Of a DNA stretch of 31,977 nucleotides, positions 605 to 18,600 are shown one piece after another. Position numbers and translations under genes: made by a program. Each line of letters opens with the position of its first letter. Position 1 is the stretch's first letter. The stretch lies in the NCBI GenBank assembly GCA_030587435.1, contig JAUQZC010000177.1, forward strand, positions 1-31,977. Reading direction: 5' to 3'. This DNA comes from Candidatus Baldrarchaeota archaeon. Its GTDB lineage: Archaea > Asgardarchaeota > Baldrarchaeia > Baldrarchaeales > DXJG01. The notes under the pieces are model-generated. The model was not told where the DNA came from, did not search any database, and was given only the letters and a program-made list of their open reading frames with translations.

Positions 605-1402
605 TTATTTAAACTTAAAGTGTTTCTGCGTTTTTTCCATTAAATCTTCACTGGTTAATCTTAGTGAGATGGGTGTTATAGAAATTGCTTTCTCGACTTT
701 AATTATATATAGGTCTGTTTCCGTGTCCGTTGGCTCGTTTTCCATTCCAAAAATCCAATAATAAGGTATACCAAAAGGATCTACTCGCTGCTCGTACCTA
801 TTTATGTAACGTGAACGGCATGGCTTTGTAACTTTAATCGGAGTGTTCTCATCAGTATTGGAAGGGAAATTAATGTTCAGCAGGTCTACTCCCTCCGGCA
901 TACCCTTTTCAATGATTTCTGAAACTATTTCTCTAGCTCTTTCTGAGGCCTTTTTAAACAATTCTTGGTTAAGCGTTTCTGGCACCGCAAACCACTGGGA
1001 CATTTCTGCTTCAAACGAAAATGCTATTGCAGGTACTCCGTAGATTGCTGCTTCTAAAACTCCCCCCAAAGTTCCACTAGTCAATATGGATTGCATACCA
1101 ATATTTAACCCAATATTTATACCTGAAATCACAAGATCTGGAGGTTCTGAACACAACTCAGATAAGCCGAAAAGTATCGCATCAGCAGGAGTTCCAGAAA
1201 TCGCATAGCCTTTAAAATTGTTTTCTAAAGTAAACTTGCATACTCTTATGGGTTTATGGAAGGTTAAACTTTTTCCTGCGCCGCTTTTCTGAGATTCTGG
1301 GGCAACAACTAGCACGTCGACAATTTTTATGAGTTCCTTATATAATGCTAATAGTCCAGGTGACCGTATGCCGTCATCATTTGTTAAGATCACTTTATAC
1401 AA
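605..1402 (-). CDS. surE: 5'/3'-nucleotidase SurE
   Basis: This is a full-length SurE of 265 residues, a metal-dependent phosphatase that hydrolyses nucleoside 5'- or 3'-monophosphates in the cytoplasm. The N-terminus carries the family signature ILTNDDGI with the Asp-Asp metal site at residues 9-10. A PES-KSG segment lies near 35-41, and GINIG followed by SGTLGGVLEA-YGVPAIAFS runs from about 95 to 130, all typical SurE active-site and dimer segments. The start is ATG with no strong Shine-Dalgarno site upstream. It is the first gene of a minus-strand pair with the truncated peptidase. Its role is probably nucleotide salvage or stress housekeeping. Confidence 0.95.
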   Translation of the reverse strand: MYKVILTNDDGIRSPGLLALYKELIKIVDVLVVAPESQKSGAGKSLTFHKPIRVCKFTLENNFKGYAISGTPADAILFGLSELCSEPPDLVISGINIGLNIGMQSILTSGTLGGVLEAAIYGVPAIAFSFEAEMSQWFAVPETLNQELFKKASERAREIVSEIIEKGMPEGVDLLNINFPSNTDENTPIKVTKPCRSRYINRYEQRVDPFGIPYYWIFGMENEPTDTETDLYIIKVEKAISITPISLRLTSEDLMEKTQKHFKFK

Positions 1403-1479
1403 CTTTTAACCCCCAGATGCTTAATAGCAACTAACTTCTGGTCTGGAATCCAATGTTTGCGGATTGGCAGTGTATTTCG

Positions 1480-1508
1480 CATGTACATTTAATTTACAAT
1501 TGTACATG
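1480..1508. repeat. Inverted repeat CATGTACA...TGTACATG
   Basis: Two perfect 8-base arms (1480-1487 and 1501-1508) are separated by 13 AT-rich bases, upstream of surE. The spacing of the arm centres, about two helical turns, is compatible with a dimeric regulator site. No regulator can be named. Confidence 0.45.
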
Positions 1509-1649
1509 TGAAGTATTCCAAATAAATAAATTTGGAAAAACACTCTCGGAATAAAAGCATCTTAATTAATAAACTCAGAGTTTTTATAGCTAAAATTTTT
1601 AGATGGTGATTGTAGGTATTAATTTTTACCGGCTTTACCTTTCAAATGC

Positions 1650-1674
1650 AATATCAAATCTTGAATTTGATATT
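1650..1674. repeat. Perfect 10-bp stem-loop AATATCAAAT/ATTTGATATT
   Basis: Perfect 10-base arms lie at 1650-1659 and 1665-1674 with a 5-base loop CTTGA. The sequence could be an AT-rich hairpin or an operator. It lies inside the possible small ORF 1603-1755, so it could equally be chance. Confidence 0.45.
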
Positions 1675-1840
1675 CCCAAGTTACCTATCTTTGGTGTCAA
1701 GCTGTACAGCAACCTAGGCCTCTTACAACACCTCCGAATTTTATTGCTAATTTAAGTTTTTAGTAGGTTGCACAAAACCTTAATACAGTTGTGTTTAAGT
1801 CTCTTAATTAGCAATTTGCCTATGGGAGGTTTGTTTTAAA

Positions 1841-2395
1841 TTGAGTAAAAAGGATATTTCTCTTAACTTGTTTGTGTATCTCCTTCATCCTCGTAACACG
1901 GTGCTTGTTACAACGGTGAGTAGGGATGGGAAGCCTAATGTTCTTGCTGTTGCATGGATAACTCCTATAAGTGTGAATCCGCCTTACTTAGGGATAAGCG
2001 TAAAGCCTGGAAGATATTCGCATAAACTTCTACTGGAAACAGGTGAATTTGTAGTTAATGTACCAACCTTTGATCTTGCGGAAAAAGTTATGATATGTGG
2101 TAGAAAATCTGGAAGACAAGTAGACAAATTTAAAGAAGCGGGTTTAACAATTGAGGAAGCTAAAGTTGTTAAGGCACCTATCATAAAGGAATGTGTTGCT
2201 CATTTAGAGTGTAAAGTTGTCAACCGATTTGAAGTCGGCGACCACGATTTCTTCGTAGGTCAAGTTCTCGCCGCATATGTCTCAGAAGAACATTTTAAAG
2301 ACCTTTACGATGTAAGAAAGCATAAAACGCTTTTGCATATAGGTAAAAACAAATTTACCACGACGGAAGACGCCTATAAGGAAATAAAAATATGA
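1841..2395 (+). CDS. Flavin reductase-like (flavoredoxin/DIM6-NTAB family) FMN-binding protein
   Basis: The 184-residue protein has the FMN-binding split-barrel pattern of the flavin reductase-like family. HPRNTVLVTTVSRDGKPNV comes near residue 17, AWITPISVNPPYLGISV near 39, a basic SHKLL segment near 62 and TGEFVVNVP near 69, followed by a V-AP-I--C-AHLEC core. Members bind FMN and act in reduction of flavins, iron-sulfur partners or other acceptors in the cytoplasm; the substrate cannot be read from sequence. The TTG start is supported by a GGGAGGT Shine-Dalgarno site about 10 bases upstream. It stands alone with its own promoter region. The next gene is radical SAM, but 164 bases separate them, so co-transcription is uncertain. 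Confidence 0.88.
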   Translation: MSKKDISLNLFVYLLHPRNTVLVTTVSRDGKPNVLAVAWITPISVNPPYLGISVKPGRYSHKLLLETGEFVVNVPTFDLAEKVMICGRKSGRQVDKFKEAGLTIEEAKVVKAPIIKECVAHLECKVVNRFEVGDHDFFVGQVLAAYVSEEHFKDLYDVRKHKTLLHIGKNKFTTTEDAYKEIKI

Positions 2396-2559
2396 AGTTA
2401 GCAGCTTTCATAAAGTGGATAAGGAATTACGATGTCCATAATTTTTTCACTTTCCTTAACGTTTTATGTCGAATTACGTATTTTTGAAATTGGTTAGAAA
2501 TTTCTTAATGTTATGAAACGTATAAAAGATGTTTGTGAAAAGTATGATTTGGTGGATAG

Positions 2560-3411
2560 ATGTTGGAGACTGGTTCAGAGTATCCTAGGTATGTTACTCC
2601 TGGTTTTAAGCCGTTTGATCCAGTTAAGCTTGCAAAGGAAACTGAAAAGATCGTTACAAGGATTAGGAATGGTAGATGTGAGCGTAAGTATACTGCTTTT
2701 TATGCTACTGGTGTTTATGGTGGAATTGCTACAGGTTATGCGGTTGGTTGTTGTCTTAGGTGTGTTTTTTGCTGGGTTGGGTGGTCTAGAGATTTTCCAG
2801 AAAAGTTGGGGAGGTTTTATTCGCCGGAGCAGGCTTTTGAAAAGTTAAGGGAAGCTGCACATAAATATCGTGTTAATAAGCTTAGGATTTCTGGTGCTGA
2901 GCCGACTCTTGGAAAAGACCATTTACTGTCTCTTCTGGAATATGTTGAGGATTCTGAGTTTTCACTTTTTATTTTGGAGACTAATGGTATACTTTTTGGT
3001 GTTGATAAGGATTATGTTAGGAGAATTTCTAGGTTTGAGAAGGTTCATGTTAGGGTTTCACTTAAAGCTGGTACTCCTGAAGCTTTTACAAAGAAAACTG
3101 GTGCTGTTCCGGAGAGTTTTGAAATACCCTTTAAAGCTATTGAGAATCTTTTAGATTATGGAGTAAGTTTTCATGTGGCAGCGATGAGTTTGGATCCAAG
3201 GATAATGACTCCTGAAGAAAGAGCTAGCTTAATTAAAAGATTGGCTGAGATAGATGTAAATTTACTTTTAAACTTGGAAGAAGAAGTTGTAGATCCTTAT
3301 GAAACAACTCTTGCAAGGCTTAAACTTGCTGGATTTAAGTTGAAGTGGCCTTTAAGAGAGGTATATACGCCGATCAGGGATATTGTTATGGAATCTGAAA
3401 AGGAGAAATAA
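2560..3411 (+). CDS. Radical SAM domain protein
   Basis: The 283-residue protein carries the radical SAM cluster motif CX3CX2C as CCLRCVFC near residues 64-71, preceded by an aromatic and Gly-rich segment. GAEPT near 113 matches the GGE motif that contacts S-adenosylmethionine, and beta-alpha repeats of a partial TIM barrel follow (ETNG near 141, VRVSLKAGTPEAF near 165). There is no extra Cys-rich C-terminal domain that would indicate SPASM or a second cluster, so the substrate is unknown; the overall build resembles pyruvate formate-lyase activase-like and archaeal MoaA-like stand-alone enzymes. The ATG is preceded by GGTGG about 6 bases upstream, which favours it over the ATG at 2513 in another frame. 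Confidence 0.88.
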   Translation: MLETGSEYPRYVTPGFKPFDPVKLAKETEKIVTRIRNGRCERKYTAFYATGVYGGIATGYAVGCCLRCVFCWVGWSRDFPEKLGRFYSPEQAFEKLREAAHKYRVNKLRISGAEPTLGKDHLLSLLEYVEDSEFSLFILETNGILFGVDKDYVRRISRFEKVHVRVSLKAGTPEAFTKKTGAVPESFEIPFKAIENLLDYGVSFHVAAMSLDPRIMTPEERASLIKRLAEIDVNLLLNLEEEVVDPYETTLARLKLAGFKLKWPLREVYTPIRDIVMESEKEK

Positions 3412-3716
3412 TAAGGATGGTTTTCAGTTCTAAGTTTATGTGTGTTTTGTTTTATTTTGGGTTATTCTTTGCGAGAAGGGGGTTCTTGTTTGTTTTATTC
3501 GTATTATTTTGATTTGTTCCGTATTGGGTTGCATTCCTTTTGAACAAATTTGTTTTGTAGAAAAGTTTTAATATGGGCTGCGACAATTTTAGTTATAATA
3601 AGTATTACTACCATAAAGTACAAGGACTTAGGTTAGTAATTGCGATGTCAACAAAATAGTTACCTTAGAAGGAGGAAAATTTTAGAGAGATTGAATTTAA
3701 TGAAAGGTGCACTGAC
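3412..3716. other. T-rich intergenic region with candidate terminator and promoter
   Basis: After the radical SAM stop there is a long T-rich stretch on the plus strand (about 3430-3560) with several TTTT runs, as expected for intrinsic archaeal termination. A TATA-like AAAAGTTTTAATATG lies at 3561-3575. A strong AAGGAGG ribosome-binding site at 3669-3675 precedes the GTPase gene. No RNA gene is apparent. Confidence 0.4.
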
Positions 3717-4295
3717 TTGCTGTCATTTAAGATTTTATTGATTGGCGAAAGCGGGGTTGGGAAAACAACACTTCTAAGAACGCTCAAATATGGCTATTTT
3801 ACAAAATGTGGAGTTACGGTTGGTCTCGATTTCACTATACATCACATAAAAGTAGACGATGTTACATGTAAACTTGTTATTTGGGATTTTGGCGGTTACA
3901 GAAACTTTATGCGAATGTATTGGGAAAATCCTCACTTTGTAAGTGAAGCTCATGGCGCATTGCTAGCTTTTGATGTATCTTCTTATGAAACTTTTCTTGC
4001 TCTTGAAGAATGGCTTAGACTTGCCAAAAAATATAATTCAAGTGACTTACCAATTGTACTTGTGGGTATGAAAGCGGATTTGCCAAGAAACGTGCCAAGA
4101 GATGAAATTCTGAAATTTATGCAAGAAAATCAAATAGATGATTACATTGAAACATCAGCCCTAAATATGGTAAACATAGAAAAACCATTTGAAAGAATAG
4201 TTGAAATAATATTGAAAAAGAAAAACATTTTGAGAAAGAAAACTGATCAAAAAAGAGCCAAGGTGATTGAGCCAAGTAAATCCATAGCAATCTAG
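3717..4295 (+). CDS. Ras/Rab-superfamily small GTPase (divergent switch II)
   Basis: This is a single-domain small GTPase of 192 residues. The P-loop GESGVGKTT is at 10-18. A switch I Thr lies in GVTVGLDF near 33-40. Switch II is WDFGGYRNF near 57, where Ras-like proteins have WDTAGQE, so the catalytic Gln is replaced. G4 is MKAD instead of NKxD, and G5 is ETSAL. It should bind and slowly hydrolyse GTP. There is no C-terminal lipidation Cys. The TTG start has no Shine-Dalgarno site at a normal distance. The strong AAGGAGG lies about 41 bases upstream, and the frame is open to it, so an earlier non-standard start (for example ATT at 3690) is possible. It is followed by a longin/roadblock-like candidate, a common partner type for small GTPases. 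Confidence 0.85.
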   Translation: MLSFKILLIGESGVGKTTLLRTLKYGYFTKCGVTVGLDFTIHHIKVDDVTCKLVIWDFGGYRNFMRMYWENPHFVSEAHGALLAFDVSSYETFLALEEWLRLAKKYNSSDLPIVLVGMKADLPRNVPRDEILKFMQENQIDDYIETSALNMVNIEKPFERIVEIILKKKNILRKKTDQKRAKVIEPSKSIAI

Positions 4296-4351
4296 TATCA
4301 GCAAAATTTACGAGTAATGTTAAGAATCAGTTAATCAAAGAGGTGGTAAAC

Positions 4352-4936
4352 ATGATCTTAGAATATTATATTGTTGACATGAAGAATCGAAAGCTAGTTT
4401 ACCATTATAAAAACCCTAACAGTAACTATCAGCCAGATGAAGATTACACATCTGAGTTTGCAACGGCAATAGCTAAAATCTCGTCTATGTTATCTCCTGA
4501 CATGTCGGAGAAAATTCAGCGTATTCAAACTACGTCCTTTAAAATTTTTTTCGAAGTTATAAACGATCATGTATTCATGCTTGTTGCCTCAGCTGATCAC
4601 GACGATTTAGAATTAAGTTACGCTCTTACGGAGTTAATGAATAATTCGTTACCTCTTCTTGAACGAGGTAAAATTAAGGAACTAAATGTGAGGGATGTTA
4701 TTCTTCAGGGCAAAGTTAGGCTTGCAAATAGGCAAGTCTTATCGAAAATTATATTGCTTAGGTTTGGGGCTGTCATTAAGAGCTTAGAGAAATTAAAGAA
4801 TGAAGTTAATATACTGTCTACAATGGGAGGTTACGATGCTTCAACCCTCGCAATGATTTCTTCCATGGTTCAACCAGTTGAACAAGCAGTCGACGAACTA
4901 AAAGAAGCATTAAAAAACCTACCATATGTAGAATAA
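4352..4936 (+). CDS. Uncharacterised protein, longin/roadblock-like N-terminal domain candidate
   Basis: The 194-residue protein has no motif I can name with certainty. The first 110 residues alternate strands and helices: ILEYYIVDMKNRKLVYHY, a helix SEFATAIAKISSML, then strands FKIFFEVINDHVFMLVASAD and a helix. This is the order seen in longin/roadblock-type GTPase regulators, which is a structural inference. The C-terminal 85 residues are helical, probably coiled-coil (LEKLKNEVNI). I chose the ATG at 4352 rather than the in-frame GTG at 4343 because GAGGTG at 4340-4345 is the Shine-Dalgarno site. It starts 56 bases after the small GTPase in the same orientation, which supports a partner or regulator role. 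Confidence 0.75.
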   Translation: MILEYYIVDMKNRKLVYHYKNPNSNYQPDEDYTSEFATAIAKISSMLSPDMSEKIQRIQTTSFKIFFEVINDHVFMLVASADHDDLELSYALTELMNNSLPLLERGKIKELNVRDVILQGKVRLANRQVLSKIILLRFGAVIKSLEKLKNEVNILSTMGGYDASTLAMISSMVQPVEQAVDELKEALKNLPYVE

Positions 4937-5123
4937 GCAACCTAAGTCTCATGCCTCCTTTTCTATAAACCTATATAATGTCAGAAATACGGTAATAGTG
5001 AAAATGAGCTTATTGGAGTCTTTATTTTCTAAAGTAGATGAAATGAGCATTCTTAAGATTTACATTTAGTTCAAGTATCTTAATAAGGGGAAGTAATTTA
5101 GTTTAAAAGGGAGGTATAGTTTC

Positions 5124-5906
5124 ATGGTTAAGCCAGTTAAGAAATTTGTGATTGATTTTTGGAAAACGGGTTTACATGGTGAGGAAATAGGTATTAGGCA
5201 GAAGGAACAGTATAGATCTAAAAGTAGGCATTTTACAATGGACATGGACATTATCGGAAAATATATTGAAGACGATAAGGGCATTGGGTTTGCAGCGATA
5301 CGTGAAAAAGTTTGGAAAGGTGAAAAAGGCGAAGAACTAAACGGAAGGCTCGTGCTAAGACTTTTTACGGACGAAGGTAGATGGCTTGGAAGCATTGAAG
5401 AAGTTGTCATAGAGGAGCTTAAGAACAGTATAGGGTCAAACGACGTAATACCCGTGTTTGCAACAACAATACCGAATTACGACTACGTTCTCTGGATTGA
5501 GAAAGTTCATAGAAGACATGGATTTGGCGAAGTTTATGTTTTTAGTTATTTGTCGGAGAAAGAAGAAGAACCAGTAAGCGTGTTTAAAATCGACGAAAAC
5601 AGATTGACTATTGGCAGTGATTGGGACGTCTATTACGGTCCAACCAAGCAAAAAGTAGCATTTATCGATAGTAAAAAGTTTAACATTGGAGGAAAGGTTG
5701 AGATAAACATTTATGACGAAGATTTTGCTAAAAATCGCATAGCAACTAAAGCGCTTGTACTTTTCGCATCAACCATAAAATATCACAACGATATTAAAGA
5801 AAGGATAAAGAAGAGAATTGAACTTATAAAGAAAGGAGAATGGTCATATAAGCCTGATAAAGGTGAAGCATGGCTATTAAGAAACCCCAGAAAATTCTTA
5901 ATGTAA
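5124..5906 (+). CDS. LURP-one/tubby C-terminal-like domain protein (tentative)
   Basis: This 260-residue soluble protein has a C-terminal part from about 145 to 235 built of short strands: FKIDENRLTIGSDWDVYYG, then KVAFIDSKKFNIGGKVEINIYDE, then one long helix with ALVLFASTIKYHND. That order resembles the LURP-one/tubby-like barrel with its central hydrophobic helix, a fold linked in other organisms to membrane phospholipid contact. The match is from pattern only. The N-terminal half is unfamiliar. The start is ATG with AGGGAGGT about 9 bases upstream. It lies between the first GTPase pair and the GvpD-like ATPase on the same strand, with its own promoter-like sequence near 5080. Confidence 0.6.
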   Translation: MVKPVKKFVIDFWKTGLHGEEIGIRQKEQYRSKSRHFTMDMDIIGKYIEDDKGIGFAAIREKVWKGEKGEELNGRLVLRLFTDEGRWLGSIEEVVIEELKNSIGSNDVIPVFATTIPNYDYVLWIEKVHRRHGFGEVYVFSYLSEKEEEPVSVFKIDENRLTIGSDWDVYYGPTKQKVAFIDSKKFNIGGKVEINIYDEDFAKNRIATKALVLFASTIKYHNDIKERIKKRIELIKKGEWSYKPDKGEAWLLRNPRKFLM

Positions 5907-6157
5907 ACTTTCACTATCTAGTTCTGTAAATTTTACACATATTTTATTCTACTGTAAAACAAACATTGTTTTAAAAGAAAGTGCGAGATTCGTTCCTAGT
6001 TTCTTAGTGTTTAATGATTTTTAAGTTTGGGTTTTAGAAGTTAGAATGTCAAGGCTGTTTTAAAAGCTTGTTATAGTACTTATAATAACAAATATAAATG
6101 TGAATAGCGCCTATTAATTTACGTGGTATCTCCTATTTTACGGGAGTTGATTAAAAT

Positions 6158-7570
6158 ATGGTTAAAGCTGTTCTAGGATGCCCAAAAGAGTTATTAAAAC
6201 CACTCAGTAAAGGTGGTTTCTCACTTCTGATTAAGGGTCAAGCGGGAACAGGTAAAACTACGCTGACTTTCGAGATATTAAACAATATGTCAAAACTTGG
6301 ATCTGTACTCTATATCTCTACTCGTGTTTCGCCAAAATTTCTTTATGAGAAATTTCCTTGGATTAAAAACGAGTTACCTAAAGGATGCATAATGGATGCA
6401 AGAGTAACGCGAATACCGCAGGATACGCCCAGTAATCTTGTATTTAAGTATATTAATGAGATGGATATCATTAGAAATCTTCACAGTAGAATTGAAGAGT
6501 CTGGAGAGGAATTAGTGACCATTGCAATTGATAGTTTAGATGCTTTAAAAATGAATTTAGGTCTTCCAAAGGAAAACTTTGATTTGGAAACAACACTAGT
6601 TAGTATGGCATCTAAAGAAAAGGTAAATTTCATTTTGGTTTCTGAAAGAAGTGAAAACACCATGTTAGACTATATTGTTGATGGTATTGTAACCTTAGCA
6701 AGGGAGATCGTAAATAATTGTCTTGTAAGAAAACTGTATCTAGAGAAAATTAGGGGAGTGGAGATAGATAATCCCGTTATATTGTATACCTTAAAAGATG
6801 CTAGATTTACTCATTTTGAAAGCAGCTATATTCCATATCCAAGTAGGTTTGAGAGCCCTCCATTGATTACCTCTGAAGGAAAAATCTCAACAGGAATGCC
6901 GAGTTTTGATAAATTGTTCGGTGGAGGACTTAAACCAGAAGGAAGTATTCATCTTTTGGAAGTAGGTAGCGAAGTGGGTTCATACTATTTTTGGCTTATA
7001 TATCCGCTTGTAATAAGTTTACTGCGTCAAGGGATTCCAGTCGTTTATGTACCGTCTGCAGGAGAAACTGTTAAAGATACTGAGGTTTGGGTTACCTCTT
7101 TCGTGGATAAAGGCCTTTATGAACAGTTTATGAAATTCGAGGAGATAAGCGGAAGTATAGAAGAAGGTTTTTCCGTTCCTAAGCGATCTTTAGGAGATGC
7201 TATTGGAATCGTTCAGAAAATTATGAGCGATATAGATGAGATTAGAGATGTAACTGGAAGCCCGATTGTCGCTTTAATTGTTAGTGCTGACATTATAGAA
7301 TATGTTTATGGCGTTGATTTAGCTTCTCAAATTTTGAACATTTTAACCATCTACTCGAAAAAGGAAAACGTTATGGAGTTTGTTATTGTTAAATACGGTC
7401 AACCGGAAATTATTACACGTTTAAGTCATATGGCTTCAACACATTTCATGCTTGAAAATCTTAATGGTATAATTTTGCTACGTGGAAAAATACCTAAGAC
7501 AGGAATGTATGCTGTTACAGTTAGTACTTCAAAAGGCTACATTGATACAAATCTTGTACCAATCCGATGA
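6158..7570 (+). CDS. GvpD/KaiC-like RecA-superfamily ATPase with two tandem domains
   Basis: The 470-residue protein has two RecA-fold halves. The N-terminal half has Walker A GQAGTGKTT at 27-35 and a Walker B-type strand VTIAIDSLDAL near 120. The second half begins near 243 with STGMPSFDKLFGGGLKPEGS, the KaiC/RadA-like entry motif, but the following loop GSEVGSYYF lacks the Lys of Walker A, so this half is probably non-catalytic. This arrangement occurs in archaeal GvpD/KaiC-like regulators; no gas vesicle genes are present, so a gas-vesicle role is not implied. ATG with GGGAG upstream. The stop is only 9 bases before the second small GTPase, so the two are co-transcribed and may act together. 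Confidence 0.82.
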   Translation: MVKAVLGCPKELLKPLSKGGFSLLIKGQAGTGKTTLTFEILNNMSKLGSVLYISTRVSPKFLYEKFPWIKNELPKGCIMDARVTRIPQDTPSNLVFKYINEMDIIRNLHSRIEESGEELVTIAIDSLDALKMNLGLPKENFDLETTLVSMASKEKVNFILVSERSENTMLDYIVDGIVTLAREIVNNCLVRKLYLEKIRGVEIDNPVILYTLKDARFTHFESSYIPYPSRFESPPLITSEGKISTGMPSFDKLFGGGLKPEGSIHLLEVGSEVGSYYFWLIYPLVISLLRQGIPVVYVPSAGETVKDTEVWVTSFVDKGLYEQFMKFEEISGSIEEGFSVPKRSLGDAIGIVQKIMSDIDEIRDVTGSPIVALIVSADIIEYVYGVDLASQILNILTIYSKKENVMEFVIVKYGQPEIITRLSHMASTHFMLENLNGIILLRGKIPKTGMYAVTVSTSKGYIDTNLVPIR

Positions 7571-7579
7571 GGGAAAGGA

Positions 7580-8146
7580 ATGGTAGAATCTAGAGTTTAC
7601 TTGTATAAAATTGTTTTGCTTGGAGACGGTATGGTTGGGAAAACTACTTTACGGCGAGTTTTTATGGGGGAAGGGTTTAGAGAAACCTACATGATGACTT
7701 TTGGCTGTGATTTCGCAGTTAAAGATGTCATTTTAGAAAACGATGTAAAAATTCGCCTTCAAATATGGGATTTAGCTGGTCAACCCTCATTTGAAAAAAT
7801 TAGGAAAAGCTACTACAAGGGTTCAAAAGGAGCCATATTAGTGTATGATACAACAAGAAAAGAGACTTTAGAACATGTACCTTTATGGGTAAAAGAACTG
7901 CTTTCCAACACTGGGAACAGAGAGATTCCAATAGTACTTGTAGGAAATAAAATAGATCTCAGAACCGGGAAAGAACCTCACGTTTCCACAGAAGAAGGAC
8001 TAAAGATGATGAAATTTCTTCAAGAAAATTTCGGGCTTAATGTTCTTTTTATCGAAACCTCTGCAAAAACTGGTGAAAACGTGGATACTGCATTTAAGAT
8101 ATTAGCCGGGGAAATACTTCAAAGACATAAACAATGTACCAAGTAA
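7580..8146 (+). CDS. Rab-like small GTPase
   Basis: This 188-residue GTPase keeps all five G motifs in eukaryote-like form. The P-loop GDGMVGKTT is at 14-22, and switch I Thr is in MMTFGCDF. Switch II is WDLAGQPSFEKIRKSYYKG, including the catalytic Gln and the Rab-like tail, with VYDTT after it. G4 is GNKID and G5 is ETSAKTG. A Cys sits three residues from the end, but not in a prenylation motif. It should be a cytosolic or peripherally membrane-bound GTP switch. It overlaps functionally with the upstream GvpD-like ATPase (9-base gap, AGGGAAAGG as ribosome-binding site) and is better conserved than the GTPase at 3717, so the two are probably not redundant. Confidence 0.92.
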   Translation: MVESRVYLYKIVLLGDGMVGKTTLRRVFMGEGFRETYMMTFGCDFAVKDVILENDVKIRLQIWDLAGQPSFEKIRKSYYKGSKGAILVYDTTRKETLEHVPLWVKELLSNTGNREIPIVLVGNKIDLRTGKEPHVSTEEGLKMMKFLQENFGLNVLFIETSAKTGENVDTAFKILAGEILQRHKQCTK

Positions 8147-8197
8147 TATTTGCTCTCGCCTTAAATTTAATTCTATTGTCGTTGCTAATGACAGCTC

Positions 8198-8212
8198 AAA
8201 GTTTAAATATTT
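8198..8212 (+). promoter_or_regulatory. BRE/TATA-like promoter
   Basis: AAAGTTTAAATATTT is an archaeal BRE plus TATA-like element about 53 bases upstream of the GTG of the membrane-anchored gene, which also has its own GGGAGGT ribosome-binding site. It implies that the two membrane genes can be transcribed apart from the GTPase. Confidence 0.5.
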
Positions 8213-8264
8213 GCTTCTGGTTATCCTTATTACTTAATGGACAACCTTGGGAGGTTAAGAATTC

Positions 8265-8726
8265 GTGGCTGCAAGAACTATTTTCAACATAATTAAAGCG
8301 CTCGTAATATTGTTTGGTATAAGTGTTTCTGCTCTTTCAACTATAATGACATACGATGCTGCAAGCCTTAATATAGGTCTTAAAGATGCTGCAAGTTCTG
8401 TTGTATTTCACCCTGAACCGACAACGGTAGCAGTAACTGCGGAGATAACAATAGAACACAGAGGACTCCTATTTTCGTTTTCAAATATGAACGTTGTTGT
8501 ACATATTTATTCAGATGCTGTACCCGATGGGCCTGTTGCTTTGGATAAAGAAATTTTCACGATAAATCCTGGTGAAAGAAAAACTTTAACATTTGATTTT
8601 GAAATAGAACGTTCAATTTTTAACGTTACAAGTGAGTGGACCATTGTTATCAATGTTGACGGGGTTATGTCTCTCATGGACAAAAACTTCGTGTCTTTTA
8701 CTCTCAACTACACCGAAACGGTTTAG
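8265..8726 (+). CDS. Membrane-anchored extracytoplasmic beta-sandwich protein
   Basis: The 153-residue product has a basic start and one hydrophobic segment (IIKALVILFGISVSALSTI, about 9-27) acting as signal anchor. About 115 residues of alternating strands follow (VTAEITIEHRGLLFSFSNMN, PGERKTLTFDFEIER, WTIVINVDG). This is an immunoglobulin-like or CARDB-like beta-sandwich in character, probably outside the cell. No enzymatic motif is visible. GTG start with GGGAGGT 9 bases upstream. It is 12 bases before the next membrane protein, so they form a pair, lying downstream of the GTPase gene. Confidence 0.72.
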   Translation: MAARTIFNIIKALVILFGISVSALSTIMTYDAASLNIGLKDAASSVVFHPEPTTVAVTAEITIEHRGLLFSFSNMNVVVHIYSDAVPDGPVALDKEIFTINPGERKTLTFDFEIERSIFNVTSEWTIVINVDGVMSLMDKNFVSFTLNYTETV

Positions 8727-8738
8727 GAGGAGGAACAA

Positions 8739-9161
8739 ATGGGAGTTAAGAGCGGAATCATAAGATTTATATATTATTTCATCACTTGGGGCTATCTCCC
8801 AACGCTTGGAAATGATGTTGCAAAACATTATGGCATATACCTTTTGTTGTTTGACAAAGAAATGATTATGACGATAGGTTTCGTTGTAGCCGCATTAGCG
8901 GCTATTGAAAAAACTTTTGAAGACACTAAGCCAGCTATTAGCGGCGTTTCCGGAATACTTCGAAACATCGTAGTGCTTTGGTACTTTTTCAAATTTTTGG
9001 AAATGATTACTCTCATCCGGCTACCAGCTTTGAACGTTAGCATTAGCGTTTCCTACAATCTTATAAAAGATCTTATAGTAGCATCTATCCTCTTAACGAT
9101 CTTTAAACATGTAATACAAGTTGCATTTAGCAAATACCTAGTGAAGACACCTACGACATAA
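8739..9161 (+). CDS. Small multi-pass membrane protein
   Basis: The 140-residue protein has about three hydrophobic segments (GIYLLLFDKEMIMTIGFVVAALAAI region near 32-55, ILRNIVVLWYFFKFLEMITLI near 72-92, and DLIVASILLTIFKHVIQVAF near 111-130). No family is recognised. The ATG is preceded by AGGAGGA overlapping the end of the upstream gene region, showing translation within one operon. It may form a membrane complex with the upstream anchored protein. It is the last gene before a convergent terminator region shared with tldE. Confidence 0.75.
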   Translation: MGVKSGIIRFIYYFITWGYLPTLGNDVAKHYGIYLLLFDKEMIMTIGFVVAALAAIEKTFEDTKPAISGVSGILRNIVVLWYFFKFLEMITLIRLPALNVSISVSYNLIKDLIVASILLTIFKHVIQVAFSKYLVKTPTT

Positions 9162-9225
9162 AACGTACACTGCACCTCATTCCTAATCGTAAGATCCGTT
9201 AAAAATAGAAAAATCTAAGATAATG

Positions 9226-10575
9226 TTATTTCGTTGCTGTAGTTATTTTCACGTCTTTCACTGCAACGTACGGGGTTATTACTGGAGTTTCTATTTCCCA
9301 CCAGTGAACTTGCTCTACCTCCTTTGTAAACCCTGAAATACTGTTGAAAAGTTTTAGAATATTATCTGAGACTCTGATTCCTCGAATTGCACTTTTTATT
9401 TCGCCGTTTTCAATTAGAAATATTCCGTCACGGGGTATCGTTGAGAAGTCTCCAGTTCTATAGTTTTGGAACCGCGTATACCATGTGTTTTCAATTAGGA
9501 TACCGTTTTTTACATCTTCTAACAGTTCATTAAATGTGCGGTTTCCAGGTTCAAACATAATATTCCACGCGTGAGGTACTATCCAACCAGCATTCCCGGT
9601 GGTTTTTGTCTTAAATTTCTTGGCAGTTTTTACATTATGTAGAAAAGTTTCTACGACGCCGTTCTTTACAAGTTCATTTCGCCTTGTAGGAACTCCTTCA
9701 TCATCAAATGGACGAGAATTATAACCATTAGGTAGATGTGGATCATCCACTATTGTAACCTCTTCGGGCGCTACCTGCTGGTTTAACTTATCTGCTAGAG
9801 GGCTTAAACCACTTTCTACATAAAATGCTGAAAAAGCCATGGATGCAAAGTCGAGAAGATTCGCAAAACTATATGGACCAAATATAACATTATATGTTCC
9901 AGGTTTACCTGAGGCTGGGTTTAAAGACATTTTTGAAGTCTCACCAGCCTTTTCACCTGCTTTCGACGGATTAAATTTACCTAGGGTGCGGGACACTGAA
10001 AGACCCATTCCCTGTGCTACTCCTTCATCATCAGCAAAAGACCTTACAGTTATTTCGATTCTTGTTCCTTTATCCTTGGCTTCCACATTTCTAGATGTAA
10101 CAAGTACTGTTTCATTATATTCTGAGTAAAGTGTGCCAGCTACTCGTTTTCCTCCAGCATTTAAAGCAGAGTTTATCGCTTCTTCAGCGAAGTCTACTAT
10201 TTCCTCTCCAAGTTGATCAATTTTTGGATCATAAGTATCAGAGAGACTTTTATAGGTGAACGGCCCCTCTGGCAACTTTTCGTAGCCTTCAACTTCTCTT
10301 GTTATTTTTATTACGTGTAAGAGCTTGTTTAAGTTTTCTTTAAGCGAATTTTTCTCCATGTTCGTTACTTCGCACATCGCAATTCTCCTGTCCTTAGCCA
10401 CGTACACTTTAATTGCAATATCATCCCAGGTTTTTGTTACTGTTATTTGATTGTTAGAAAATCTTACCTGTCTCTTCACTGTTTTATTAACGAGCGTGGC
10501 TATTTCATCAACGCCTAGTTTAAGCCCTTCCTTGACAATAAAATTAGCTAAATCGTAAATATCTACTTCTACCAT
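9226..10575 (-). CDS. pmbA: TldE/PmbA-type subunit of the TldD-TldE protease
   Basis: The 449-residue protein has the PmbA/TldE layout: an N-terminal domain with VKRQVRFSNNQI near 30, then the C-terminal beta-rich domain with LADKLNQQVAPEEVTIVDDPHLPNGYNSRPFDDEGVPTRR pattern and GNAGW near 325. It lacks the HExxxH motif, as expected of the non-catalytic partner. TldD and TldE form a heterodimer that degrades or trims unfolded and modified peptides in the cytoplasm. Its Shine-Dalgarno GGAGGT is embedded in the last codons of tldD and the spacer is 3 bases, so translation is coupled. Confidence 0.92.
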   Translation of the reverse strand: MVEVDIYDLANFIVKEGLKLGVDEIATLVNKTVKRQVRFSNNQITVTKTWDDIAIKVYVAKDRRIAMCEVTNMEKNSLKENLNKLLHVIKITREVEGYEKLPEGPFTYKSLSDTYDPKIDQLGEEIVDFAEEAINSALNAGGKRVAGTLYSEYNETVLVTSRNVEAKDKGTRIEITVRSFADDEGVAQGMGLSVSRTLGKFNPSKAGEKAGETSKMSLNPASGKPGTYNVIFGPYSFANLLDFASMAFSAFYVESGLSPLADKLNQQVAPEEVTIVDDPHLPNGYNSRPFDDEGVPTRRNELVKNGVVETFLHNVKTAKKFKTKTTGNAGWIVPHAWNIMFEPGNRTFNELLEDVKNGILIENTWYTRFQNYRTGDFSTIPRDGIFLIENGEIKSAIRGIRVSDNILKLFNSISGFTKEVEQVHWWEIETPVITPYVAVKDVKITTATK

Positions 10576-10578
10576 TTA

Positions 10579-12024
10579 TTAACCTCCAAGTCTAATTTTT
10601 CTTAACCTTGCGGGTGGGCCTCCATGCCATACTGGTGCTCCTTGACCTGGATCTCCTTTACCGCATATGGCTGCTTCAAACTCCATTAGTTCGGCTTTTC
10701 CTATGGCATCGATACTGCTCCAGAAGGCTGGAGTTGTTATTTCAAGAATAGGGTTTTTTACAAGATGTTTTATTTCACCTTTTTCGATTAAATAGGCTTC
10801 CTTACCTATGTATCTTTGATTAAATCTACGGTCATCTATGTTCCATTCACCAAAGGTTTTCATATATATGCCCAACTTTATGTCCTCTATAAGTTCCTCG
10901 AAGGAATAGTCTCCTGGCTCAAGATAGGTGTTCGCCATTCTTACGATAGGTTCACGATTATAGCCTATAGCTCTTGCAGCAGCATTACTTTGAACTCCAA
11001 ACTCACCTGCAGTTTCCCTATTATGTAAAAACTCGTTAATAACTCCATTTTTGATGAGATATCTCTTCCTAGCTGGTACTCCTTCATCATCATACCTATA
11101 ATATCCGTAGGAATAAGGGATTGTCGGGTCGTCGACTACATTTACTATTTCACTGCCGATTTTTTGACCTAGCATCTCTTTTTTAACAAAACTTTCTCCT
11201 GCCTGTGCTGCTTCTCTCCCCAAAATTCTGTCTGCCTCATACGGGTGCCCTACAGATTCATGACAAGCTATACCAACGATTTGAGGCCCTAAAACTATAT
11301 CGATTTCCTCTGCTACAGGTTTTTTTGCTTCTCTCAATATTTTAACTAAAATTTCTGTGAGTTCTGCACATTTTTTAGGTAAATTCCATTCTTCCAGTAC
11401 TTCAAATCCTTTTGTAGCTCCCACGTCTATATATTGCTGCTCAAAACCTCCTGAAGAAGGTTCGACAACAGTTATTACCGCAAAACCTGAAACCCCTACG
11501 ATTTCCCCCCTGACCTTAGTTCCTTCACTATTTACATAGTACTTGTAGATATAAGTGTCGCTTAACTGTATGAGCCTGCCGGGAACCATTGCCTTCAAAC
11601 GCTTTCCTGTTTCAAGAATACTTTTATCAACATCTAGAAGTGCTTCCAACTTTTCTTCAGGAGATATATCTAATGGATTTTGTTTAAATATTGTTCTCCA
11701 CGATCCCATTATGGTTTTTTCCTCTGAAAGGACAATAGGTTTCTTTCTAGTTTTTGAAGATTTTTTTGCCATTTTTACGGCTTCTTCAACTTTTTCCTTT
11801 ACAAGTTCCTTTGAAAAACGATTTAGACTTGTGAAGCTCATGCCTCCATCAACTAAAACTCTTATGCCGATACCAAAAAAAGATTCTATTCCAGATACCT
11901 CTGGTACACCGTTTTTTAACAGAAAAACATTGCTTAAAGTTTTTTGAAGCCTAGCTTCGACATAATCAGCGCCAAGCTTTTCACCCATCTCAACTGCATA
12001 TTCAACTAAATCCTCATGTTCCAA
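10579..12024 (-). CDS. tldD: TldD metalloprotease, catalytic subunit
   Basis: The catalytic partner of TldE, 481 residues with the start chosen here. HESVGH (the HExxxH zinc motif) is at 255-260, followed by PYEADRILGREA. VVDDPTIPYSYGYYRYDDEGVPARKR and an FLHNRETA segment are hallmarks of the family, and a C-terminal Cys lies in AAICGKGDPGQG. I start at TTG 12024 because GGGAGGA ends 6 bases before it; the longer form from 12054 would place this site inside the gene. It is the first gene of the tldD-tldE operon. In bacteria the pair matures modified peptides; no precursor peptide is visible beside it here. Confidence 0.93.
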   Translation of the reverse strand: MEHEDLVEYAVEMGEKLGADYVEARLQKTLSNVFLLKNGVPEVSGIESFFGIGIRVLVDGGMSFTSLNRFSKELVKEKVEEAVKMAKKSSKTRKKPIVLSEEKTIMGSWRTIFKQNPLDISPEEKLEALLDVDKSILETGKRLKAMVPGRLIQLSDTYIYKYYVNSEGTKVRGEIVGVSGFAVITVVEPSSGGFEQQYIDVGATKGFEVLEEWNLPKKCAELTEILVKILREAKKPVAEEIDIVLGPQIVGIACHESVGHPYEADRILGREAAQAGESFVKKEMLGQKIGSEIVNVVDDPTIPYSYGYYRYDDEGVPARKRYLIKNGVINEFLHNRETAGEFGVQSNAAARAIGYNREPIVRMANTYLEPGDYSFEELIEDIKLGIYMKTFGEWNIDDRRFNQRYIGKEAYLIEKGEIKHLVKNPILEITTPAFWSSIDAIGKAELMEFEAAICGKGDPGQGAPVWHGGPPARLRKIRLGG

Positions 12025-12054
12025 GAACAGTCCTCCCTCAAAAATTAACATCAC

Positions 12055-12727
12055 AATCTCGTAGCAGTTGTTAAGTTAAGTAATGTGAACAGTATATTTT
12101 AAATTTTGGTTAAACAAGGTTTTAAATCAAATAAACTTGCTTTACATGAGCAGAATTTTACATAATGACAACCATAAACAACATTTGAAAGAATTACAGC
12201 AACACAAGCTTTGTAATACGAAAGTAAAAAATTGATATAACCCACAAAGCCATGTCATACTAAAGTCCCTAACAAAGAAAAATGTTTGATTTCTGCTTAT
12301 AAGTCTAGTTATGTCTTCTAAAATTTTGGTACCATTTTAAAACCTATAAGATAACAAAACGACGATAATGAAAATTTGGTGGAAGAAAAACATTCAATCC
12401 ACAATATGATGGCCAGTAGTTATTGGGGTTCAAACAGCACTTAGAATCGAGCAGTTATCATCCACCATAAAATAACCGTAAAGACGCATCCACGACGTGT
12501 AATTCTTTTACTGATTTTAGAGCATTGAGAAATTTTTCAACATCGATTTACTATTTGAATATGCGCCACTAATAGTATTGGTAGCCCAAATCACTCTATT
12601 TCCATTCCATCAACGGTAGGCTAAAAACGTTAAATTAGAATTTAGTTAGATTTAGATATGTCTCTATTCGGCTGAGTTAAGTATAAATGGGATACCAGCT
12701 ATTGTTAAATTTTGAAGGTGATTTTAG
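12055..12727. other. 673-base intergenic region without a convincing gene
   Basis: Both strands are broken by many stops. A GGGGTTCAAAC sequence near 12424 resembles a tRNA T-loop but has no matching stem. Promoters for tldD (minus) and the zinc-ribbon gene (plus) must lie at the two ends; GTTAAGTATAAATGGG near 12674-12689 is a TATA-like candidate for the latter. The middle is probably degraded sequence. I see no repeat, RNA gene or recognisable protein remnant. Confidence 0.5.
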
Positions 12728-13012
12728 TTGGCTGAGTGTCCAGTGTGTGGTAATCCGATTCCATTCCAGAAATATGTATTATTAACTAATTGGAGTACGA
12801 TTACTTGCCCTAAATGTGGCAGCCGTCTTAAAGCTAATCGAAAGATTAACTCTCTCATCGGAGGTATTGGAGGGGGTACAGGAGCCATAATAGGTACATG
12901 GCTCATTAGAACTTTTTCTCTTTATGCATGGATTTCTTTAATAACTTGGATTACAGCTGTTATCCTAGCTATGAGGCTCCTAACAAAACTGGAGTTAGCT
13001 GAGACCACGTGA
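12728..13012 (+). CDS. Small zinc-ribbon membrane protein
   Basis: The 94-residue product begins with a zinc ribbon, CPVC at 4-7 and CPKC near 33-36, followed by two hydrophobic helices (about 44-60, Gly-rich, and 66-86). The ribbon should face the cytoplasm and the protein be anchored by the two helices. This two-part layout is frequent in archaea and its role is unknown. TTG start with GAAGGTGA about 8 bases upstream and a TATA-like box about 50 bases upstream. It is monocistronic, between two minus-strand genes. Confidence 0.75.
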   Translation: MAECPVCGNPIPFQKYVLLTNWSTITCPKCGSRLKANRKINSLIGGIGGGTGAIIGTWLIRTFSLYAWISLITWITAVILAMRLLTKLELAETT

Positions 13013-13140
13013 AATGTAATGTACCTGCACAAAGATTACGGAGCTAATATATCTGGTAGGAGAAAACGCAAACTTAAAACTAAGTAATGATTGTGGGTTC
13101 AGATAGTTGACGCCGAAATCGTGATGTAATTCATTGTTCA

Positions 13141-13731
13141 CTATTGTTTTGTTGGTTTGAATATTGGTGCTTTTCTGTCGAAGAATGGGTTTTTCCCTAG
13201 TGACGCTAATGGTATTGCCATCACTACGTCGCTTTCAAGGTATTTTAGTTTTCTTGCTGCGGTTCCTGCTCTGAACATTATTCTGTTGTCCACGTTTAGT
13301 AGGCTTGCTGTTCTCACTGCTGATCCTATTGCTATTCCTAGGTCTAAAATTTTGAACATGCAGTTTGGTCCTTTAAAGTGTTCATAGTCTTTTCTCTCAG
13401 CGTTTTTGAATTCTTTACATGTTTCGAAGCCACATGCGCCGCAGTTTATCCATAGGGGGTTTCCGCCATTAACTCCTATTAGGAGTACTGCCTGGGCCTT
13501 TTTTACGCTTTCTGCATCTCTTTTAAAGAATATATCGTTTTTTTCTTCAGCTATTTCGAGCATTTTCTCTACTAATGCGTCTTTTTCAGCTCCGTAGACT
13601 AGTGCTATTTCTATGTCGTCTATTCCAGCTGATTTGGGTGCAGTTCTAGCACTATTTACCATAAGTTTTGCAGCCTCAATAACGGCTTCTGCTTCAAAAC
13701 CTTTACCTTTAATAACTGGTATATTAGCCAC
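13141..13731 (-). CDS. DUF2148 ferredoxin-like domain protein
   Basis: The 196-residue protein matches the DUF2148 family of archaeal and anaerobic bacterial proteins. AAKLMVNSARTAPKSAG comes near residue 20, a nitroreductase-like sequence. A Cys cluster follows, with Cys in NCGACGFETCKEF near 97-106 and GPNCMF near 123, that should bind a [4Fe-4S] cluster. The C-terminal half with IGSAVRTASLLNVDNRIMF is typical too. Function is unknown, presumably redox. The GTG start abuts the GGGAG site with no spacer, so a slightly later start cannot be excluded. Confidence 0.88.
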   Translation of the reverse strand: MANIPVIKGKGFEAEAVIEAAKLMVNSARTAPKSAGIDDIEIALVYGAEKDALVEKMLEIAEEKNDIFFKRDAESVKKAQAVLLIGVNGGNPLWINCGACGFETCKEFKNAERKDYEHFKGPNCMFKILDLGIAIGSAVRTASLLNVDNRIMFRAGTAARKLKYLESDVVMAIPLASLGKNPFFDRKAPIFKPTKQ

Positions 13732-13917
13732 CTCCCAACCGATTGGAACAAATAAGTTGAAAAAAGTAGGTTGTTAAAGTATAAATTTCTTTGGTAAAAT
13801 GGGGGTTTGTTTGAGACATCAGGTTTATTGCTGATTAAGTTTTAAATACCTCAAAAGATTTCAAGTATTATTGTAGTTGTTAAGCTAATCAACTTGGTTA
13901 GGATGTGAGATTTAAAG

Positions 13918-14832
13918 GTGGTAAATTCAGAAGACACTAATAGTTCTATTCATATCTATTCGAGGTTTTTTGACAAAATTATGAAAGGTCGCTTTGTTTT
14001 TACGTTTGAGGTTAGTTGTTTAAAAGGTTTTACTATTAGAAGTATTTTAAAGAAAGTCGAAAAAAATAAAAAGTTTTTTGATGCTTTTGTTGTTCCAGAT
14101 AATCCTTTTGCAAAAGTTTTTCCTCATCCATTAGCCTTATGTGACAAGATTCAGAAAGAAAGTGGTGCAGAAACTGTTATGACTATTTGTTGCCGAGATA
14201 AAAATAGGCTTGCTATTCAATCAGAGGTTTTGGGGGCTGAATTACTGAATATTCGCAATATAGTTGTTGTGACTGGTGACCCGCTTTCGGAAAGCGATGG
14301 AATTAAAAATGTTTTTGATGTAAATTCTATTCAGGCTATAAAAATGATTAAAAATATGACTGTTCAAGGAAATATTTCAAATGAATTGGAGATAGGAGAG
14401 AGATTAAAGCTGCATGTGGGCGCCGTGGTTAATTTATCTGGTAGGAACTTGGAAGAGGAGGTTGAAAGATTTTTCATGAAGGTTGATGCAGGCGCAGAAT
14501 ACGCTTTTACCCAAATTGTTTTTAATCCAGATTTACTAGTAGAATTTAAGGATAATGTGGGTAAAATTCCAATCCCAATTATTGTAAGCATTTACCCGGT
14601 TATATCTTGGGAGCAAATATGTTTCTTAACATCTTTTTCAAGTTTTGAAATTCCTCTTCAAACGATTGCATATTTTAGGCAAAAGAAGAGAGATGTCGAT
14701 ATGGGGGTTAAAGAAGCTTTGAACGTTGCTTTTAAGGCGAAAGAACTCGGCTTTAATGGGGTACATATTGTTTGCAAAAATGTTAATCTTACGGTAAAAC
14801 TTGTTAAGAGGTTAAAGGAGGAGGTTAGCTAG
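13918..14832 (+). CDS. MetF-like methylene-tetrahydrofolate/methanopterin reductase
   Basis: The 304-residue protein has the MetF TIM-barrel pattern: FVFTFEVSC near 22, AETVMTICCRDKNR near 82, NIVVVTGDPLSESDG near 113, GAVVNLSG near 165 and AGAEYAFTQIVFNPD near 186. It should reduce the methylene group on tetrahydrofolate or tetrahydromethanopterin to methyl using a flavin. There is no MetV-type or other extra domain, so the electron donor is unknown. The gene directly abuts the methionine synthase gene and ends with its ribosome-binding site (AAAGGAGGAGG). GTG start; no strong Shine-Dalgarno before it apart from AGGATGTGAG, so the ATG at 13981 is an alternative. Confidence 0.82.
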   Translation: MVNSEDTNSSIHIYSRFFDKIMKGRFVFTFEVSCLKGFTIRSILKKVEKNKKFFDAFVVPDNPFAKVFPHPLALCDKIQKESGAETVMTICCRDKNRLAIQSEVLGAELLNIRNIVVVTGDPLSESDGIKNVFDVNSIQAIKMIKNMTVQGNISNELEIGERLKLHVGAVVNLSGRNLEEEVERFFMKVDAGAEYAFTQIVFNPDLLVEFKDNVGKIPIPIIVSIYPVISWEQICFLTSFSSFEIPLQTIAYFRQKKRDVDMGVKEALNVAFKAKELGFNGVHIVCKNVNLTVKLVKRLKEEVS

Positions 14833-16670: not shown

Positions 16671-16709
16671 ATTCGTGGTTACCGCATAAACAGTTACTTA
16701 GCCTTGTCT

Positions 16710-17075
16710 TTAATTATTTTTCTGAATAGCTCTTTCAATTTTCCCAGATTTATAAGGTGCTGTTTCATTTGATGGCATGTTTAAGCATCCCCTAAAATAT
16801 AGGTATAATAAGTAAACTATAAGCAAAGGAAGCTCGTAGAAAACAATGGGAGACCAGTCGAAAACTACTATTTCCATAAAACTGTCCTCTTCAGGATTAA
16901 CATCGAGAGGTTGAAAGGATTCATGTAGTATCCGATTGTTTTTCATGAAAGCGTAGTATTCAAACCAAACTTGTAAAAAGGCATGCTTTATTGGGGCGAA
17001 AGCATAAAATAATTCGTTTCTAAATTCTTTAAGATCGCTGTAAGATAACATAGCCATTAAATATTGCAATTTCAA
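16710..17075 (-). CDS. Uncharacterised protein, doubtful gene
   Basis: The open frame (121 codons, from TTG 17075) would encode an acidic and aromatic-rich protein with one hydrophobic segment near residues 76-94 (PIVFYELPLLIVYLLYLYF). No ribosome-binding site precedes the TTG, and in-frame ATG codons follow at 7 and 9. It lies alone on the minus strand between convergent and divergent neighbours. It has no known family, so it may be a remnant or a chance frame. Confidence 0.35.
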   Translation of the reverse strand: MKLQYLMAMLSYSDLKEFRNELFYAFAPIKHAFLQVWFEYYAFMKNNRILHESFQPLDVNPEEDSFMEIVVFDWSPIVFYELPLLIVYLLYLYFRGCLNMPSNETAPYKSGKIERAIQKNN

Positions 17076-17179
17076 TGGAACGAAAATCTACGAGATTACG
17101 ATCAACAGAGAATTTTATTAATAAGGAATGAAAATTACGAATGAGAAACCTGTTTAAGTTATGAGGTGGAGGTTTTAAT

Positions 17180-18598: not shown

Positions 18599-18600
18599 AC

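Follow-up and report, generated by a model that had tools for sequence, protein, structure and literature searches.

The question raised by this locus is whether a run of genes that brings two small GTPases, a GvpD/KaiC-type ATPase and two apparent membrane proteins together in an archaeon acts as one system or falls into smaller units. The locus lies at positions 3,717 to 9,161 of a 31,977-nucleotide stretch of DNA (contig JAUQZC010000177.1 of assembly GCA_030587435.1, labeled Candidatus Baldrarchaeota archaeon), which was analyzed at its full length and is hereafter called the window. Here, our comparisons revealed tight pairs rather than a single seven-gene unit, with the ATPase gene at 6158 and the Rab-like GTPase gene that follows it as the best-supported unit. 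The recurrent pairing of such genes in other genomes, together with the joint absence of both from a relative, suggests that the ATPase and the GTPase cooperate. An initial annotation, made from the sequence of the window, had described seven plus-strand open reading frames (ORFs), and all seven were confirmed at their coordinates:

GTP1, 3717..4295, plus strand: Ras-superfamily small GTPase of 192 residues (Pfam Ras, 111.4 bits)
LONG, 4352..4936, plus strand: probable longin-like domain (~115 residues) followed by C-terminal helices; alternative start at 4343
LURP, 5124..5906, plus strand: protein of 260 residues from a widespread Asgard family, its C-terminal half remotely similar to LURP-one-related (LOR) proteins
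ATP, 6158..7570, plus strand: GvpD/KaiC-type ATPase with an intact N-terminal P-loop and a second RecA half without the Walker A lysine
GTP2, 7580..8146, plus strand: canonical Rab-like small GTPase (Pfam Ras, 150.2 bits)
MEM1, 8265..8726, plus strand: protein that by eye begins with a hydrophobic segment; no Pfam family above cut-off
MEM2, 8739..9161, plus strand: hydrophobic protein that, by eye, probably spans the membrane several times; no Pfam family above cut-off

The shortest intergenic distance, noticed at the outset, was upheld: the ATPase stops at 7570 and the Rab-like GTPase starts at 7580, 9 bases apart. MEM1 and MEM2 are separated by 12 bases and GTP1 and LONG by 56, and wider gaps lie on either side of LURP (187 and 251 bases), before MEM1 (118 bases) and between the upstream radical-SAM gene and GTP1 (305 bases). 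The seven genes look real and under purifying selection, because 12 of 13 pairwise comparisons, which spanned eight genes with the neighboring radical-SAM gene among them, gave a ratio of nonsynonymous to synonymous substitution rates (dN/dS) of 0.01–0.17; the thirteenth, of MEM2 with its counterpart in the relative G005, was saturated. A scan for sigma-70 promoters returned 17 sites against 20.4 expected, with a model that is uninformative for an archaeon. Pfam searches with the products of 4343, 5124, 8265, and 8739 gave nothing above cut-off.

Asgard archaea are the group held nearest to eukaryotes, and the organism had at first been thought not to look otherwise Asgard-like. That impression was overturned when 84,980 species genomes were scanned with the ATPase, since the two loci returned, both in metagenome-assembled genomes, carry ATPases 94% (L001, recorded as Candidatus Odinarchaeota AUK032) and 95% (L002, recorded as Candidatus Baldrarchaeota Yap30.bin4.67) identical to that of the window. 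Baldrarchaeota are placed in the kingdom Promethearchaeati and Odinarchaeota are also Asgard; by sequence similarity, the organism of the window is an Asgard archaeon. The GTP2 counterparts of the two loci are ~96% (L001) and ~90% (L002) identical to the window's. One of the two phylum labels is probably wrong.

Phylum-wide counts were made over the 227 genomes of the phylum of G002 (the genome of L002), taken as Asgard; these are assemblies of unstated completeness, and gene absences are therefore weak evidence. Homologues came from whole-genome searches, and neighborhoods were read in 100 regions around ATPase matches, mostly the top-ranked ones rather than every match, and in 40 regions around LURP matches, with ORFs called by script (first start codon, longest non-overlapping) and the "next gene" taken as the next scripted ORF of at least 80 residues. 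A small GTPase was the next gene for 20 of 108 full-length ATPases and, among 844 control genes, for 30 (Fisher p 6e-8), and a same-strand GTPase at a gap of at most 60 bases was found for 12 of the ATPases and 8 of the controls (p 1.5e-7), i.e. an enrichment of ~5-fold for adjacency and ~12-fold for tight same-strand pairing. After collapsing at 45% identity, adjacency was seen in 8/31 ATPase clusters versus 23/498 control clusters (p 2e-4) and tight pairing in 3/31 versus 5/498 (p 0.008). When all 126 family members from the 100 regions and the window were considered, a GTPase was next in 25, with control rates of 8/310 for genes in LURP loci and 11/312 for genes in ATPase loci away from ATPases; the latter set leaves out the genes beside ATPases, which the 844-gene set includes. 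The part of the initial description that sets a GTPase beside a GvpD-like ATPase is supported by these counts, such a neighbor being commoner next to the ATPases than next to control genes.

The 12 operon-like cases comprise the window, seven loci of clade A (G085–G092) and four of clade B (G064–G071). In the Baldrarchaeota group of the window the ATPase precedes the GTPase by the 9 bases given above, and L001 and L002, which stand outside the 108, carry the same pair. The ATPase also comes first in the seven clade A loci (G085–G088 and G090–G092), with gaps of 3–50 bases, and the GTPase comes first in the four clade B loci (G064, G065, G066, and G068), with spacings from an overlap of 4 to a gap of 26 bases. 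In clade C (G077–G079), GTPase proteins of 304–310 residues adjoin the ATPase on the opposite strand, and Pfam, applied to the one in L133, identified a fusion of longin and Arf (Arf, 3e-22; clathrin adaptor small chain, 0.0014). In G081, a single gene separates the ATPase from a roadblock-Ras fusion. On a tree of 110 ATPases built with FastTree, the GTPase-adjacency label needs nine changes, seven of them forced by starred branches. As side observations on these loci, the product of this intervening gene in G081 (L110:4977-5615) carries a CYTH domain (25.4 bits, cut-off 23.2), and NAD synthase genes stand a few genes from the ATPases in G078 (L134:8978-9886), G079 (L135:16310-17218), and G077 (L138:8005-9012).

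The second line of evidence came from G005, in which the genes follow the order FLAV, RSAM, GTP1, LONG, LURP, MEM1, MEM2, that is, the order of the window minus ATP and GTP2. The 389-base gap in G005 at the spot of the missing pair encodes, on the matching strand, 27 residues that are 70% identical to residues 158–184 of GTP2 (E 1.4e-10 for the gap alone), and a search against the whole 18-kb G005 locus returned a 29-residue match (E 7e-8). When compared with 88 GTPases, the gap peptide was closest to three GTP2 proteins, those of the window, L002, and L001. At other places in G005, the ATPase and GTP2 find best matches of 46% and 61% identity, respectively. The simplest reading of these sequences is that the pair was ancestral and was then lost from G005. 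Insertion of the pair as a cassette was considered and judged less likely than loss, because the G005 gap holds what appears to be the C-terminal end of a GTP2-like GTPase. The repeats found at 5850–8300 of the window are short and imperfect.

The same relative bears on the initial proposal of a single GTP-controlled membrane module made up of all seven genes, in which the two switches would work with a longin platform, a LURP-one-like protein that binds lipid, the ATPase, and the pair of membrane proteins. This proposal can draw on the order of GTP1, LONG, LURP, MEM1, and MEM2, which is kept in G005 at 61–90% identity, and on the GTPase remnant, which hints at an earlier presence of the pair there; yet G005 retains these five genes without ATP and GTP2 at the same spot. 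Moreover, gene order is shared from position 605 to 15747 of the window, except for the ATP/GTP2 pair and a zinc-ribbon gene, and as this reaches far beyond the module on both sides, the five-gene order says little about joint function. Of 40 LURP loci, two (G005 among them) have a GTPase no more than two genes away and none has this ATPase so near, and MEM1 adjoins MEM2 not only in G005 but also, with weaker matches, in G003 and G174 (E ~4e-4 for G174). We therefore regard a single seven-gene module as unlikely and retain the ATPase/GTP2 pair as the unit of interest.

Several observations weigh against a functional link between the two members of this pair. In the pieces fetched, 88 of the 108 full-length ATPases have no adjacent GTPase, although contig ends hide some; the clade B ATPase has none in G069, G070, and G071; and for the closest ATPase paralogue, which is 46% identical and occurs in G005 and G002, the nearest GTPase seen is ~4 kb off. 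Clustering at 45% identity removes shared ancestry only in part, and the loss in G005 is one event that may be a chance deletion. The GTPases themselves, placed on a tree of 85 rows with 22 labeled as ATPase-linked, were compared by the approximately unbiased (AU) test, which did not reject the union of the three operonic groups in a single clade (p 0.142), nor that of clades A and B (p 0.639). The operonic groups sit apart on the tree, and in G002 the best match of a clade A or clade B GTPase is not GTP2; repeated recruitment of GTPase partners is not claimed here, because the AU test does not reject one clade. We also noted that in the GTPases ~4 kb from the closest ATPase paralogue (L129:12554-13066 and L130:12172-12684) a lysine replaces the switch II glutamine (VDLKGK).

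The unpaired ATPases would also suit an explanation by chance, according to which small GTPases are so numerous in Asgard archaea that some adjoin the members of any large family, and GTP2-like GTPases were indeed found at E <= 1e-30 in 225 of the 227 genomes. The controls drawn from such genomes nevertheless fall short of the ATPases by the ~5-fold and ~12-fold factors given above, and both genes are missing together in G005. Mere coincidence of neighbors is accordingly improbable in our view, and a link between the ATPase and GTP2 is preferred.

A closer view of the ATPase was consistent with a GvpD/KaiC-type protein, as Pfam assigned it a GvpD P-loop domain at 82.4 bits (cut-off 24) and a KaiC domain at 48.6 bits (cut-off 26.6), with GvpD basic region 2 below its cut-off (25.0 versus 27.9 bits). 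The second Walker A motif reads GSEVGS, so the loss of its lysine from the second RecA half, which had been read from the window at first sight, is confirmed. Among 112 aligned relatives, two keep the pattern GxxxxGK[ST] in their second half and the other 110 lack it there; a P-loop-less second half is thus, on this alignment, a trait of the sampled ATPase family. The lysine of the first-half Walker A motif is present in 110 of the 112 (two are gapped) and the Walker B aspartate in all 112. Double KaiC ATPases are defined by a Walker A lysine in both RecA halves, and the window ATPase, with GSEVGS, falls outside this definition. By sequence, SSO2452 (2w0m) was the only solved relative at E 0.01 (E 7e-4). 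Matches to the ATPase were found in 101 of the 227 genomes, with up to nine per genome, although several matches can be fragments of the same gene. A PADLOC search gave five matches, every one beginning at the P-loop (best E 2.3e-4), and no match to a known defense system beyond this region of the ATPase. Two side observations concern the family at large: in clade B (L169:4468-8902 and L172:5022-9461) the ATPase is clustered with three single-domain relatives of ~230–280 residues, and 40 of the 126 family members lie within two genes of another member.

The likeness to GvpD raises a further alternative, in which the ATPase regulates the expression or stability of its neighbors rather than the nucleotide state of a GTPase. 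A study on haloarchaeal GvpD (PMC4390858) describes a protein that oligomerizes and acts on a product of its own transcript: gvpDE are cotranscribed, and GvpD induces the breakdown of the activator GvpE, for which its Walker and arginine-rich motifs are required. The window ATPase shares with GvpD and archaeal KaiC-like ATPases the RecA/KaiC fold by profile, a first P-loop that is intact and above the GvpD cut-off, and, with GvpD, an adjacently encoded partner candidate (GvpE for GvpD, the GTPase here). It differs in the second half without the Walker A lysine and in the small GTPase as neighbor. Since basic region 2 stays under its cut-off, the recurrent neighbors found are GTPases, and no GvpE-named family is among the Pfam matches listed for 10 window proteins, we hold such a regulator to be an unlikely explanation and favor an ATPase that would work with its GTPase. 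The Pfam scan of the same 10 proteins, to which it was limited, found no gas-vesicle structural family.

The presence of two different small GTPases, as first described, is supported by the Pfam Ras matches of both the 3717 and the 7580 products. GTP2 has canonical motifs throughout (G1, WDLAGQ, NKID, and ETSAK), and its best relative among solved chains is a Thorarchaeota Rab, PDB 7ezb, which we take to be the Thor-Rab structure of the study in PMC10933270. GTP1, whose best solved relative is Rab11B, combines an intact G1 with WDFGGY in place of the usual glutamine and MKAD for NKxD, so the absence of the switch II glutamine and the unusual G4 reported initially are both seen in the motifs. 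Its relative in G005 is 62% identical, has the same neighbors, and reads WDFGGC and TKAD.

Asgard genomes can carry dozens of small GTPases. In PMC10933270, 74 small-GTPase-related sequences are counted in MK-D1, 26 of them combined with roadblock or longin domains, and the small GTPase genes are described as generally not sharing an operon with genes for roadblock, longin, or TRAPPC3 proteins; the assignment of GTPase-activating proteins (GAPs) and guanine nucleotide exchange factors (GEFs) to Asgard GTPases is held to be hard because operons are generally not shared. Compared with this account of MK-D1, the window has one GTPase 56 bases from a longin-like gene and a second 9 bases from an ATPase. 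The locus also resembles the MglA/MglB and Rag/Ragulator systems in that a GTPase lies beside a longin-like gene and, in other Asgard loci, longin- or roadblock-fused GTPases lie beside or near ATPases. It differs from them in that Pfam found no roadblock domain (Robl_LC7) among the seven products and in that the neighbor with the strongest statistical link is the ATPase. With ArvABC, the haloarchaeal vesiculation operon as portrayed in PMC10927574, the window shares a small GTPase within a conserved archaeal gene set; ArvB (DUF2073) and ArvC (DUF2072), by contrast, are not among the Pfam matches listed for the seven window products. A survey of prokaryotic GTPase neighborhoods (PMC4316618) mentions neither KaiC nor RecA in its main text.

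The computed basis for the pair thus consists of adjacency, purifying selection, pairing above the control rate, joint absence with a remnant, and the state of the motifs. With somewhat more confidence than doubt, we propose that the ATPase and GTP2 form a two-gene unit, made together and acting on one another. Binding, oligomer formation, and the direction of control between the two are what we infer in the following scheme. The ATPase would form an oligomer in which the first RecA half would hydrolyze ATP, and the P-loop-less second half would serve as a regulatory or docking half. The GTPase would bind the ATPase in one nucleotide state, and either GTP would switch the ATPase or ATP hydrolysis would reset the GTPase. 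GTP1 and LONG would constitute a second, separate switch on a longin platform; lacking the usual glutamine, GTP1 would probably cycle slowly, with slow hydrolysis.

The recurrent, operon-like ATPase/GTPase pair offers named and testable partners and, should the scheme hold, an ATPase that regulates, or is driven by, a GTPase would represent a pre-eukaryotic GTPase regulator or effector that is neither roadblock nor longin. A broader and more tentative possibility, which we would sooner question than assert, is that Asgard archaea possess a class of GTP switches with a dedicated, half-dead KaiC/GvpD-type ATPase partner, a single machine thereby coupling the ATP cycle to the GTP cycle. If this is true, the longin- or roadblock-fused GTPases beside or near such ATPases would mark the ATPase as a missing regulator, or effector, for some of the GTPases that Asgard archaea possess. 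A keyword search of the open-licence literature, covering mostly titles and the starts of abstracts, returned no GvpD/KaiC-type partner of Asgard GTPases.

The 4352 product, initially described as longin- or roadblock-like, is probably longin-like as judged from its sequence family; this half of the description gained weak profile support, and the roadblock half found no match among the seven products. An alignment read by eye showed that ATG 4352 fits the relatives better than GTG 4343. The family has matches in 16 of the 227 genomes, and the Pfam family Fuz_longin_1 was weakly matched by 8 of 13 relatives (best E 0.011), with no Pfam longin match for the window protein itself. A profile of the 13 members also finds the N-terminal 100–115 residues of GTPase proteins, including those next to ATPases in L145 (E 1.1e-5), L144 (2.1e-4), and L133 (1e-3), and does not match the fourth such GTPase protein, in L120. 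A single-sequence structure model of low confidence (predicted local distance difference test, pLDDT, 55) runs strand, strand, helix, helix, strand, strand, helix, and continues with further short elements and then two long helices. Searched against solved structures, the family gave ten matches, all at E >= 0.64. A GTPase lies within two genes in 1 of 15 LONG-family loci, namely G005 itself, within flanks of 1.5 kb only.

The 5124 product had been proposed as a LURP-one/tubby-like protein. In weak support of the first part of this notion, hhalign aligned the C-terminal half of the family with 27 Asgard LOR proteins (75.6%, score 42.9), above the nulls run for LURP: the best of 30 other locus families scored 24.6, 60 column shuffles at most 18.8, and the reversed alignment 14.4. 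The control on the LOR side went the other way, as another family reached 47.8 across 26 N-terminal columns of LOR and a further family 30.9, so single scores of such size can arise otherwise; the LURP match sits in the C-terminal half, away from the 47.8 match. Pfam found no LOR (PF04525) match in the window protein, and among the matches listed for 37 relatives (25/30 families, each from one relative) LOR is absent. No solved structure in the PDB matched the family up to E 10, and the structure model (pLDDT 35) is unusable for judging a tubby-like barrel fold. The profile comparison suggests that the product is, remotely, LURP-one-like: its C-terminal half aligns with LOR above these nulls, but the family is not detected by Pfam, and Asgard genomes carry LOR genes apart from it (in 58 of 148 genomes searched, 53 above cut-off). 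A keyword search of the open-licence literature found no report of LURP-one in Asgard archaea.

An NPR motif is invariant in 37 aligned members of this family, which has matches in 155 of the 227 genomes, one match in 136 and two to five in 19. Because a GTPase or this ATPase is so rarely near (2/40 and 0/40 loci, as above), its place beside the switches is probably incidental, and it stands as an uncharacterized protein that is widespread among Asgard genomes. The membrane pair is less widely distributed, with matches to MEM2 in 10 and to MEM1 in 7 of the 227 genomes.

Outside the seven genes, L001 (6568-8724) and L002 (8201-10918) carry two to three genes with hydrophobic N-termini between the match of window 10579-12054 and the zinc-ribbon gene; these are missing from the window, in which a minus-strand fragment at 16710-17075 resembles them by eye. 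Farther along, at 13918-19761, genes resembling by eye a methylene-tetrahydrofolate reductase, a methionine synthase, an MtrH-like methyltransferase, and a GlcD/GlcF-like oxidase pair make up a possible methyl-transfer cluster.

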